Shown piece by piece: positions 21,536 through 41,336 of a stretch of 64,000 nt of DNA. Origin of the DNA: Akkermansia sp. (GTDB taxonomy: Bacteria; Verrucomicrobiota; Verrucomicrobiia; Verrucomicrobiales; Akkermansiaceae); contig JAFURE010000046.1 of assembly GCA_017471985.1 (NCBI GenBank), forward strand, positions 1-64,000, given 5' to 3'. The translations under genes and the position numbers were made by a program. Under the pieces are notes generated by a model, which did no database searches, was not told the DNA's origin, and saw nothing but the letters and a program-made list of their open reading frames with translations. Every line of letters starts with the position of its first letter. The stretch's first letter is position 1.

Positions 21536-21608
21536 GGCCCTGTAGCTCAGCGGTCAGAGCAGGCGACTCATAATCGCTTGGTCGCGGGTTCGAGCCCCGC
21601 CGGGGCTA
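21536..21608 (+). tRNA. tRNA-Ile2 (anticodon CAU)
   Basis: All four arms fold. The acceptor is GGCCCTG / CGGGGCT with discriminator A, the D-stem is GCTC/GAGC, the anticodon stem GGCGA/TCGCT has loop CTCATAA, and the T-stem is GCGGG/CCCGC. The CAU anticodon could be Met or the lysidine-modified Ile2. The anticodon arm GGCGACTCATAATCGCT and the following TGGTCGC match the known tRNA-Ile2 pattern closely, so I prefer Ile. CCA is not encoded. The 3' end is copied in the repeat elements downstream. Confidence 0.87.
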
Positions 21609-21647
21609 GCACAAAAAAGCGCACCAGACGGTGCGCTTTTTTGTGCT
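21608..21647 (+). terminator. long perfect hairpin after tRNA-Ile(CAU)
   Basis: A perfect 17-bp inverted repeat starts at the discriminator base (AGCACAAAAAAGCGCAC / GTGCGCTTTTTTGTGCT, loop CAGACG). The internal T6 makes it a bidirectional terminator. A very similar hairpin recurs at 30222-30265. Confidence 0.82.
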
Positions 21648-21657
21648 TATGCCCCAA

Positions 21658-21793
21658 GCGGATTAAGGCTCGAACCCGCGACCGAGCGGGCAGGCTGCGA
21701 GTGACGCAGCAGCCTGCCCCTGCGCCACCGAGACACCTCTCGGTGGGAACCCCGCTAGGGGCGCAGGGGGTGGGTAGAGCCCCGCCGGGGCTA
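21658..21793 (+). repeat. tRNA-linked structured element, copy A
   Basis: The element begins with GGCTCGAACCCGCGACC, the inverted copy of the upstream tRNA-Ile T-arm and variable loop. It continues with an 11-bp hairpin (GGGCAGGCTGC / GCAGCCTGCCC) and then a three-way junction. The junction has outer stem CCCCTGCG/CGCAGGGG, one arm CCACCGAGA/TCTCGGTGG and one arm CCCC/GGGG. It ends with GGGTAGA followed by a direct copy of the tRNA 3' end, AGCCCCGCCGGGGCTA. Copy B is nearly identical, and copy C shares the plan with compensatory changes. Function unknown. Confidence 0.8.
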
Positions 21794-21799
21794 TTGCCA

Positions 21800-21838
21800 A
21801 AGGCTGCATTCCTGAAATTGAGGGGATGCAGCCTTTTT
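21800..21838 (+). terminator. terminator following the displaced tRNA-Ile 3' end
   Basis: A 10-bp stem AAGGCTGCAT / ATGCAGCCTT with loop TCCTGAAATTGAGGGG is followed by T5. The loop motif CCTGAAATTGAGGGG recurs in a hairpin at 27618. Confidence 0.8.
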
Positions 21839-22359
21839 CTGTTTATGCGCTGATATTTAACGAATTGCAGAGTCCTTAATTATTAAAAAGAATGTATATT
21901 AAAAGGCTCAAAACGCCCTGATTTTGCCCTTTCTTACTCCCCTGCCTGTCTCGGCGTAGCTTTAGCGAAGACGGAGGACTCTAAAGAACTGGGGTCGCGG
22001 CATACAATAAACTCCTATTTTGTTGCAAAGGCTTAATGATGAGTGGATTGGATAAAAGTATATAGTTTACCCTTCTCAAATAAAAGTAGGGTTGATAATG
22101 AATACGTTATGAGCCTGACCCATAAAAAGACTATACTTTTGCCCCTTTTTCAGCCCGGAAATCGGCAAGCTTTTTAACGATTCGAGCCTCTCCTCAACCC
22201 GGCAGACCAAGGGCTCCCGCGAAGGTGAATTCTAGGCTTTCGGGCCTGTTTTTGCGCTTAGTTGCATAGAATTATCTCCCGGCTCCGAACTAACAGCTTG
22301 CAGAGCCTCCCGGATTCTGGTAACATGACACCGTAACAAATAACCATCTTCCAAATACT
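21839..22359. other. intergenic region without a recognised gene
   Basis: This 521-bp stretch holds no convincing gene. It is mixed in composition, with AT-rich parts and a small hairpin AGGCT-TTCG-GGCCT followed by GTTTTT near 22233-22250 that could act as a terminator. It may be decayed cargo of the tRNA-Ile locus. Confidence 0.4.
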
Positions 22360-22911
22360 ATGAATCTGAGACCTTTTGTATGTTCTGTTCTCGCTTCCGC
22401 GTTCATGCTCCCCATGCACGCCATGGGTGAGAGTGAAGCCCAAGAAGAAAATCCCTTTTACGAACAAATTCGAAGAATGTCGGAGTCAGGAATATTTTGT
22501 GGAACCCACGCAAGAGCCCTTGATGAAGTAGATTTACAATTGGGACTTCTAGAGTCCGGACGGCCACAAGAGTTTAGACAAAAAAATAATTTAAAATTGT
22601 CATTGTGTAGTTTACCTCTTCTCTTTATGATGAAAGAAATGGGTGATAGTGAAGCCGCCAATTACATTGCGGCTCTTGAAAAAGAGACCAATATAGAAAT
22701 TATATATGTTATCTATTATCGTTATTATAACCTTGCTGATAAAATTAATGATAGGCGGTTTCATAATAAAGGCATTGACCATAAATATATGCCAAGAAAA
22801 CTACAACGATATTGGTCTGAGGTTTTCAGACAAAATATACTAAATATCAATCTGGATATCGAATTGGATCTTTCCGATTCTGAGAAAAAAAGTCGAGCAA
22901 TTGTTGAGTAA
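22360..22911 (+). CDS. hypothetical exported protein
   Basis: A 183-aa protein I do not recognise. The N terminus is a good Sec signal peptide (RPFVCSVLASAFMLPMHAMG, cleavage probably after residue 23), so it should be periplasmic or secreted. The mature part is charged and mostly helical, with a Tyr-rich stretch IEIIYVIYYRYYNLADKIN and a LELDLSDSEKK-like acidic tail. It stops just before the next lipoprotein gene, and the two are probably co-transcribed. Composition is more AT-rich than the housekeeping genes. Both lie between repeat copies A and B downstream of tRNA-Ile, that is, in accessory cargo. Confidence 0.6.
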   Translation: MNLRPFVCSVLASAFMLPMHAMGESEAQEENPFYEQIRRMSESGIFCGTHARALDEVDLQLGLLESGRPQEFRQKNNLKLSLCSLPLLFMMKEMGDSEAANYIAALEKETNIEIIYVIYYRYYNLADKINDRRFHNKGIDHKYMPRKLQRYWSEVFRQNILNINLDIELDLSDSEKKSRAIVE

Positions 22912-22927
22912 AAAGAAAATCTTAACC

Positions 22928-23530
22928 ATGCCCACCATCCCCAGAATCCTCACCATCACAGCCCTGTGCCTTGCGGCGGTAGGGCTGAGTTGCTGCAACA
23001 GCACCCCCCGGGCAAAATATACCCCTGTTTTACTTGCGGATACAGCCCAAGCGGAATCGGCTAATACCCCATGCCGCTCGTTAAGTGTAGATAAACAAAA
23101 ACACATTTACACTTTCTATTTCGTATTGCGCGATGGTGATACTCCTATTGGCTTTCTTGCTATTCCGGTGCAGGAAATAGTAAAAAATGAGATGTTGACA
23201 GGTATTTCCGTGTTGCCTCCAACCTTCATTCTGGAGAGAGAATACGAAAATCTTCGTTTTGTTTTTTCTTCATTTGAGACTGCTATACGCAAAAACGGGA
23301 CATATAGAGGCGATATTGACGTGACTCTTAAAATCCTCCCCACGGAGGAAAATGACGGGACCGTCATTCACTCATTTGGATTTGTATACGAAAAGGGAAA
23401 GAACGGTCAGCTGGTGATGAGAACCTCAGCTGATAATGTCCCATTCAATGTTCCGGAAAAGATTCTAAGCTCGAAAACCAGTATATGGCCAAGGGAAATA
23501 TCTCTGCAATTCTTCAGTCTTGAAAATTGA
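22928..23530 (+). CDS. hypothetical lipoprotein
   Basis: A protein of 200 aa with an N-terminal lipoprotein-like signal (ITALCLAAVGLSC, followed by CNSTPRA). The lipobox G-L-S-C is imperfect. The mature part has no recognised domain; it is beta-rich by eye (TFYFVLRDGDTPIGFLAIPV; GTYRGDIDVTLKILPTEEND). I take the ATG at 22928; an in-frame TTG at 22901 would overlap the upstream gene and put extra charged residues before the signal. It is probably an envelope protein co-transcribed with the preceding exported protein. Neither has a visible partner or enzyme nearby. Confidence 0.58.
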   Translation: MPTIPRILTITALCLAAVGLSCCNSTPRAKYTPVLLADTAQAESANTPCRSLSVDKQKHIYTFYFVLRDGDTPIGFLAIPVQEIVKNEMLTGISVLPPTFILEREYENLRFVFSSFETAIRKNGTYRGDIDVTLKILPTEENDGTVIHSFGFVYEKGKNGQLVMRTSADNVPFNVPEKILSSKTSIWPREISLQFFSLEN

Positions 23531-23610
23531 AGCCTCCATCCTCCAGATTCCTTGACACCTCATCCCTCTGCCTTGCGGCGGGGAAATAACGCATAAAAAG
23601 CCATCTTGCA

Positions 23611-23630
23611 GCCTAGGATTCCTCCTAGGC
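23611..23630 (+). terminator. hairpin immediately upstream of the group II intron
   Basis: A perfect 8-bp stem GCCTAGGA / TCCTAGGC with a TTCC loop ends 8 bp before the intron's 5' end. Group IIC introns characteristically insert just after such terminator-like hairpins. Confidence 0.72.
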
Positions 23631-23638
23631 TGTTCGCT

Positions 23639-24285
23639 GTGCGACCGGCGCGATATGCGCACTGCGGTGAAAGTCCGCGCGGAGCCGCGATGATGCGGAA
23701 TCCCAGGCCTGAAGAACAACTGCGGGAAGGTAACAAACCGTGGAAGAGGAAGTTCGAGGGGAAATCCCGACTGTACGAACAGAAACTGCATATAAGGCCG
23801 GATGGATGGACGAGGTTGCAGCAAGTGCCGAAATCCGATACATCATCAAGAATCCATAAGGTAGATGCAGACGGCGCGGGAGGAAAGTAGCATAGTCATA
23901 TTCGGTGAGACCCTACTAAAGCGCGAAAACGCTGCGGAGCAATCCGTCTGTAGGGAGTCAGCAGAGGCCATAGTACCACCAAAACGAACAACCCCGGTGG
24001 GAAGGGCTGAATCACGGCGTGGGCAACCACTCAAATCTCAGAACCTATAGCAGCAGAGCCAAGAAGTACTGAAATGTACGAAGCCTCGACTGAAAGAGGG
24101 AAAGCGGTGCAAGTCCGAATCCACGTAACAGTGCGGAGGAGTTGACAGGGTATCTGGCGAGGAGAGATAAAAGAGTTGCGGCAGGAACATTAGTTCCGGG
24201 ACCAATCACACGCCGAGAAACCGCCGTATGCCATAAATGGCACGTACGGTGGTGTGAGAGGGGGACGAAAGTCCTCCTACTCGAT
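23639..24285 (+). mobile_element. group IIC intron lacking its reverse-transcriptase ORF
   Basis: The element starts with GTGCGACC, the group II 5' splice signature. It contains the conserved AGTCAGCAGAGGCCATAGTA block found before the ORF in class C introns. It ends with a recognisable domain V (ACCGCCGTATGCC / GGCACGTACGGTGG) and domain VI (CCTACTCGAT, with the branch-point A). Its length of about 647 nt leaves roughly 250 nt for domain IV, and no reverse-transcriptase/maturase frame exists in any frame. The ribozyme could still splice but would need a maturase in trans to move. Insertion after a hairpin fits class C target choice. Confidence 0.85.
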
Positions 24286-24294
24286 TTATTCCCG

Positions 24295-24427
24295 GCGGAT
24301 TAAGGCTCGAACCCGCGACCGAGCGGGCAGGCTGCGAGTGACGCAGCAGCCTGCCCCTGCGCCACCGAGACACCTCTCGGTGGGAACCCCGCAAGGGGCG
24401 CAGGGGGTGGGTAGAGCCCGCCGGGGG
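24295..24427 (+). repeat. tRNA-linked structured element, copy B (no adjacent tRNA)
   Basis: This is nearly identical to copy A through the inverted T-arm segment, the 11-bp hairpin and the three-way junction. Differences include GCTA to GCAA in one loop and a shortened 3' end (GAGCCCGCCGGGG). It carries tRNA-Ile sequence although the nearest tRNA-Ile is 2.7 kb upstream. It starts 10 bp after the group II intron. Together with copy A it brackets two exported-protein genes and the intron. Confidence 0.8.
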
Positions 24428-41053: not shown

Positions 41054-41126
41054 GGTGGACGTAGTTCAGCGGTAGAGCCCCGGATTGTGGTTCCGGTTGT
41101 CGTGGGTTCGAATCCCATCGTCCACC
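41054..41126 (+). tRNA. tRNA-His (anticodon GTG)
   Basis: The cloverleaf folds fully: acceptor GTGGACG / CGTCCAC with discriminator C and the His-specific extra G at -1 (41054), anticodon loop TTGTGGT, and T-arm with GGTTCGAATCC. CCA is not encoded. Its 3' end is copied at about 41303-41322 and, degenerately, before 42508. Confidence 0.95.
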
Positions 41127-41132
41127 CTTGAT

Positions 41133-41170
41133 GAACAAGCCCCGTGCCTGACAAGGTGCGGGGCTTGTTC
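41133..41170 (+). repeat. hairpin between tRNA-His and element copy C
   Basis: A perfect 12-bp stem GAACAAGCCCCG / CGGGGCTTGTTC with inner CCT/AGG pairing sits in the same position as the hairpin after tRNA-Ile. It has no T-tract. Confidence 0.75.
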
Positions 41171-41173
41171 GTG

Positions 41174-41322
41174 ATTAGCGTGTCCGGATTCGAATCCACG
41201 ACAACCGGAGGTTGGAGTGGGCGGCGAATGCCGGTGGCATGAGCCGACCCTGCGCCGGGCAGACCCCTCTGCCCGGGAAGCCCGAAGGGCCGCAGGGGGC
41301 GGGTAGAATCCCATCGTCCACC
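41174..41322 (+). repeat. tRNA-linked structured element, copy C
   Basis: The element starts with GATTCGAATCCACGACAACC, the inverted copy of the tRNA-His T-arm, variable loop and part of the anticodon stem. It then has hairpins, the three-way junction, GGGTAGA, and a direct copy of the tRNA-His 3' end (ATCCCATCGTCCACC). The junction keeps outer stem CCCTGCG/CGCAGGG, while the arms change together (CCGGGCAGA/TCTGCCCGG; GCCC/GGGC). The AGA-C-CCTCT apical region and GGGAA linker are shared with copies A and B. Confidence 0.8.
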
Positions 41323-41336
41323 CTGCGCGGTTTCTT
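41321..41336 (+). repeat. direct repeat, left copy, flanking the 309-aa gene
   Basis: CCCTGCGCGGTTTCTT directly follows the displaced tRNA-His 3' end and recurs exactly at 42508-42523. Confidence 0.82.

Follow-up and report, generated by a model that had tools for sequence, protein, structure and literature searches.

Gene-free integrative units with a folded core at tRNA genes of Akkermansia

Three copies on one plan

What kind of element lies behind a tRNA gene, repeats the end of that gene and folds into a three-way junction? The question is raised by three copies on the forward strand of a 64,000-nt stretch of Akkermansia DNA (the window), namely copy A (about 21661–21795), copy B (24298–24426) and copy C (41174–41322). 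An earlier note had proposed that the three share a single plan, and all are present as it described, in the common order of an inverted T-arm, a hairpin, a three-way junction, the GGGTAGA motif and a copy of the tRNA 3' end. The folds of A, B and C are better than those of all 200 shuffled sequences (z of −4.6, −5.0 and −3.1, respectively). The plan thus stood, but the marked limits did not: the unit is larger and includes a terminator between the tRNA and the inverted arm. This part of the unit was missed in the note, which also overlooked that units form tandem arrays and that defence cassettes share the junction (see below).

Copy A adjoins an intact tRNA gene with a CAT anticodon (21536–21608), labelled Met(CAT) by ARAGORN and probably an Ile2 tRNA. 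The last 17 bases of this gene (Y1, 21592–21608) are supplied by the inserted unit, which also brings in a terminator-like hairpin (21609–21646) that empty sites lack. An inverted copy of the T-arm of the host (21667–21683) folds back on the direct strand (together 21667–21690), which repeats the 5' strand of the T-stem, GCGGG (21686–21690), in direct orientation and is followed by the hairpin H1 (21689–21717). The three-way-junction core (21718–21768) is composed of a 7-bp closing stem, a 9-bp arm with a CACC loop, a GAA linker and a third arm. The GGGTAGA junction and the second tRNA 3' end (21772–21793) complete the unit, with Y2 (21777–21793) as its right boundary, and the terminator t0 (21794–21841) lies directly behind it. 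Further downstream, a REP-like palindrome, CTGTCTCGGCGTAGC...GCGAAGACGG, occupies positions 21946–21976 and is missing from an orthologous empty site (L187); a motif resembling it is found inside a unit at another locus (L108).

Copy C is arranged in the same way behind tRNA-His(GTG) (41055–41127; Y1, 41110–41127). The terminator-like hairpin brought in with this unit (41128–41171) has relatives in the His units of other species. The inverted T-arm copy (41186–41208) folds back on the direct copy (41210–41221) with a tandem G-A mismatch, and is followed by H1 with a GGT triloop (41222–41247), the three-way-junction core (41248–41297) and the GGGTAGA junction with the second tRNA-His 3' end (41301–41323), in which Y2 (41306–41323) forms the right boundary of the unit. 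Copy B is 98% identical to copy A, with its core at 24355–24405, but has no adjoining tRNA, just a damaged tRNA 3' end. A group II intron without an ORF lies directly upstream of it (23639–24285, ends placed by inspection) and is probably a neighbour rather than part of the element.

Distribution and insertion at tRNA genes

A covariance model of the core detected two further copies in the genome of the window, on contigs C18 (at a tRNA-Pro) and C39, as well as copies in many congeneric species, where they often stand in rows of two or three. With an improved model, the search of related genomes proposed in the earlier note places the family in 42 of 76 Akkermansia species. A wide search through 365 genomes that belong to other genera of the phylum found no unit; it scored few candidates per genome, so that weak relatives outside Akkermansia could be missed. 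The data are mostly draft MAGs in which many copies lie at contig ends, and the unit is absent from the large complete Akkermansia genomes of the set. A pattern scan of named genomes likewise gave Akkermansia as the genus, mostly as MAGs recovered from the gut of ruminants, horses and buffaloes. Seven of its matches fell outside the genus. Six of these score as chance, and the seventh (L156) is a real, complete unit with an AT-rich left flank and without a tRNA. It lies on a contig from goat caecum that was assigned to Clostridia, probably by mis-binning, a transfer being the alternative. There were no matches to the GGGTAGA-type pattern in IMG/VR, and no unit in a phage collection searched with copy A or a plasmid collection searched with copy C. 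That the element matches no named one, as the earlier note supposed, agrees with the search of Rfam 15 at gathering and relaxed thresholds, which gave no credible match for it (within the window, Rfam matches are confined to tRNAs and one group II intron). No description of such an element was found in the literature.

Throughout the family, the intact tRNA is followed by a terminator hairpin, the inverted T-arm copy and the 5' strand of the T-stem, copied directly; one subfamily is an exception, with a direct instead of an inverted copy in the arm before H1. Then come H1, the three-way junction (a 7-bp stem, a CACC-loop arm, a GNA linker and a third arm of variable length) and either GGGTAGA or a small hairpin of the CCCC-GAA-GGGG type. 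At its right end, the unit copies the 3' strand of the T-stem together with the acceptor end, often with one more terminator behind it. The insert measures about 190 bases and contains no genes, and the unit lies about 90–190 bases behind the tRNA gene. Its hosts are of at least eight kinds, including Pro(GGG), His, CAT, Gly(GCC), Asp, Cys, Arg(CCG) and Arg(ACG).

Comparison of orthologous tRNA loci with and without the element, also proposed in the earlier note, defines the insertion ends at tRNA-CAT and tRNA-His. In four genomes (G043, G030, G104 and G038) the tRNA-CAT site is empty and the tRNA is joined directly to t0, which is thus the original terminator. These sites match the window across the junction with 96–99% identity over about 100 bases, which identifies copy A as a 185-bp insertion between the 17-bp repeats GAGCCCCGCCGGGGCTA. 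At tRNA-His, empty and filled sites have two different right flanks in common, one linking the empty L086 with the filled L065, L083 and copy C of the window, the other linking the empty L066 and L088 with the filled L069; copy C is a 196-bp insertion. Both copies adjoin a tRNA gene and carry the sequence of that tRNA at matched ends, as had been claimed for them, and each insertion supplies its tRNA with a new 3' end and terminator. As in a tRNA-targeted element, the gene end is restored, it is repeated directly at both boundaries and relatives have empty sites. In one genome (G041), the same right flank of about 100 bases is found behind an empty tRNA-His that ends a contig (L082, C47) and behind a core-bearing tRNA end (L142, C3); the sample may have contained both states, or the assembly may be broken here.

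Units in tandem repeat with a period of about 197–205 bp. They are identical in two arrays (L017 and L021), and two others (L137 and L134) each combine two unlike units with different cores. An insertion beginning GGGTCAAGCCCAA...GTGGAATTTGA, possibly an IS end, recurs within or beside units at L134, L077, L069 and L085. At L137 and L021, a sequence that by eye resembles an antisense group II intron lies directly behind the last tRNA end; together with the intron of the window, such introns stand beside units as if targeting these hairpins. Another structured module, M, is found in some units in either orientation, in place of the core or together with it (L076, L081, L015, L128, L138, L205, L218 and L221), with about 70–115 bases matched and a hairpin of the form AAAG-stem-GACGG...GGACAAAC.

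The same junction (GGCTA) at the 3' end of tRNA-CAT also receives cassettes of 4–5 kb that contain no integrase (L217, L218, L219, L220 and L223, in G022, G107, G105, G033 and G006, respectively). Their left and right ends are conserved and bear repeated AGGACT motifs. They encode restriction-modification systems, one of the NgoMIV type and one of the BsuBI/PstI type, as well as AbiL-like genes, a PARG-like protein and HNH and T5orf172 proteins. Core units and a defence cassette occur within one array in G022 and G107.

Candidate enzymes were searched for in these genomes. The integron integrase IntI (TIGR02249) does not score above the cut-off in any of 37 Akkermansia genomes, the nine genomes in which it does belonging to other families. 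A Y1 (HUH) transposase was considered as the mover and rejected, as its presence does not track the element: PF01797 has no match in 15 unit-bearing genomes. Tyrosine recombinases are present, several to many, in each of the 12 genomes searched. One of them, of 353 amino acids, is encoded directly behind a His unit in G019, the only genome with a recombinase adjoining a unit; its relatives in several genomes were not found at tRNA 3' ends. At two loci (L272 and L054), tyrosine recombinase genes are followed by series of short hairpins, separated by constant spacers (AGAGAATTTC and GTGAAATT).

Fold of the core and its match to the host tRNA

The earlier note had seen the arms of A and C change on both sides together. 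This observation is real and extends to 41 matches (37 distinct rows), in which 19 of the 20 core pairs change on both sides. Among the distinct rows, 178 cells hold a double change and 2 a single one. The covariation score of 0.63 compares with 0.16 after shuffling and was reached by none of 500 shuffles; slid registers fall far short of it in the same manner. Pairing between the loops of H1 (RGTG) and the CACC arm was considered and set aside, the variants being without clear covariation.

Counted in the fixed register, the core has 1,058 Watson-Crick pairs, 2 G-T, 5 A-C and 42 G-A, the last mostly in tandem. G-T pairs make up 0.2% of the core (2 of about 1,060), against 11% (70/616) in the tRNA stems of the same genomes and loci. 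The near-pure Watson-Crick stems, the near absence of G-T and the pattern of pairing point to a fold of DNA and speak against the mobile structured RNA that the earlier note had offered as one possibility. Calculated with DNA energies, the fold of the sense strand is the better one in 45 of 49 cases, by a small difference that averages 2.3 kcal/mol, and tandem G-A pairs can stack on this strand, whereas the opposite strand would present T-C mismatches. The core would accordingly fold as sense-strand DNA, or else its palindromes would be corrected at the DNA level. Stems that are nearly free of wobble pairs suggest a way of separating DNA-level from RNA-level structure from sequence alone.

The core of about 104 bases fills the position of the T-loop in a copy of the tRNA 3' half. 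The note had expected relatives to carry the end of the neighbouring tRNA. This holds for 43 of 59 distinct copies with an upstream tRNA, in which the right end best fits its own host (34 exactly, with 4 ties); it fails for the tRNA-Asp copies, most of whose right ends are degenerate, and a few other copies also mismatch their host. In 53 of 69 cases, the closest relative of a core in another genome shares its tRNA. Near-identical cores are nevertheless found over about 104 bases at different tRNAs, His and Pro in G052 and Gly and Cys in G003. In both pairs, identity starts at the T-stem strand GTGGG and stops at the opposite strand, and the flanks follow the tRNA of each copy. Identity bounded by the T-stem strands implies that the core moves, or is swapped, as a replacement of the T-loop. 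Plain site-specific recombination accounts for stacking at one tRNA, but not easily for the acquisition of the arms of another. Excised or circular units were not seen.

Possible origins and comparison with known systems

That these are gene-free, tRNA-anchored integrative units with a folded core is well supported as a comparative fact. We favour, with a probability of roughly 0.57, a reading in which the non-coding units hold a folded single-stranded DNA site that is recombined in trans, probably by a tyrosine recombinase; the recombinase, the single-stranded substrate and current activity are all three things that we infer. A unit would consist of a tRNA 3' end, a terminator, an inverted T-arm, a direct T-stem strand and the folded core. 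Upon insertion, the tRNA would gain a new 3' end and terminator, and its old 3' end would stay as the right boundary. The sense DNA strand would fold into the recombination site, which a tyrosine recombinase acting in trans would join to the T-arms or 3' ends of tRNAs, building up tandem stacks of units next to gene cassettes. This would help to explain how Akkermansia tRNA ends gather restriction and defence genes without an integrase for each cassette. A bolder proposal, which we hold tentatively and regard as possible rather than probable, sees a separate class of mobile DNA, in which a folded core of about 100 bases in the T-loop position takes the arms of the adjoining tRNA within an integron-like, tRNA-anchored cassette system shared with defence genes. 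If true, a folded DNA site carrying a copy of the tRNA would let that tRNA gene anchor a cassette array at its fixed end.

The covariation and the conservation of the CACC loop, the GNA linker and the H1 triloop would also be expected of a structured non-coding RNA that arises when transcription reads through from the tRNA (for instance as a regulator or decoy of tRNA maturation), in a unit spread by ordinary recombination. Copies with a tRNA are read in its direction and terminators flank the unit on both sides. One of these terminators, however, lies between tRNA and unit, only about half of the species carry the unit and do so on differing tRNAs, and Rfam has no match; with the scarcity of G-T pairs and of single changes in the core, an RNA of this kind appears unlikely. 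Partial duplications of the tRNA by replication slippage or template switching at hairpins, which would need no dedicated enzyme, are also improbable. Fold-back copying would be expected to produce the layout XY-hairpin-inverse(XY)-X-core-Y, the identical tandem units would fit, and hairpin-templated correction would account for both the near-perfect Watson-Crick pairing and the missing G-T intermediates. Such passive palindromes are at odds with the conserved loop and linker sequences, which imply recognition, with the same core in different tRNAs bounded at the T-stem, and with the recurrence of whole units, each with its own terminator, at the same tRNA in several species.

The direct repeats of the tRNA end, the lack of genes and the tandem accretion with 4–5 kb cassettes at the same junction might alternatively mark decayed ends of larger integrative elements, left with attL and attR only and folded as a by-product of overlapping att sites. 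This origin is very unlikely: the core is conserved and covaries in 42 species and at many tRNAs, which indicates selection rather than debris, and no intact parent ICE or IME with both core and mobility genes was found, G019 being a possible exception.

Among known systems, the units resemble integron cassettes in the serial insertion at a fixed site that gives mixed arrays, and attC in a palindromic site whose fold is conserved over its sequence and in which one strand is favoured, as is described for IntI and attC (PMC3053210, PMC2117344). The earlier suggestion of an attC-like structured recombination site holds as far as site-like behaviour at orthologous tRNA loci is concerned, and does not hold for attC in the strict sense: IntI stays below the cut-off in the Akkermansia genomes searched, and the R-box pair RYYYAAC/GTTRRRY has no match in the three units of the window. 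In addition, the units are anchored on a tRNA gene, are mostly without a gene and have ends that copy the host tRNA. With integrative elements of tRNA 3' ends and with CIMEs, which are defined as cis-mobilizable elements with attL and attR only (PMC5704250), they share the restored and repeated tRNA 3' end, tandem accretion and the lack of mobility genes, but they measure about 190 bp, carry no cargo and have a folded core instead of a T-loop. REP/BIME and IS200/IS605-type (Y1) sequences are likewise short, intergenic, structured repeats with strand-specific folding, and differ from the Akkermansia units, whose insertion leaves the tRNA end directly repeated. The structured RNAs of Rfam have similar covarying stems and conserved loops, whereas G-U pairs are almost absent from the units. 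On the favoured reading, the Akkermansia units would work somewhat like integron cassettes without being members of that family, and their sequences suggest a type of mobile recombination unit that has not been described before.
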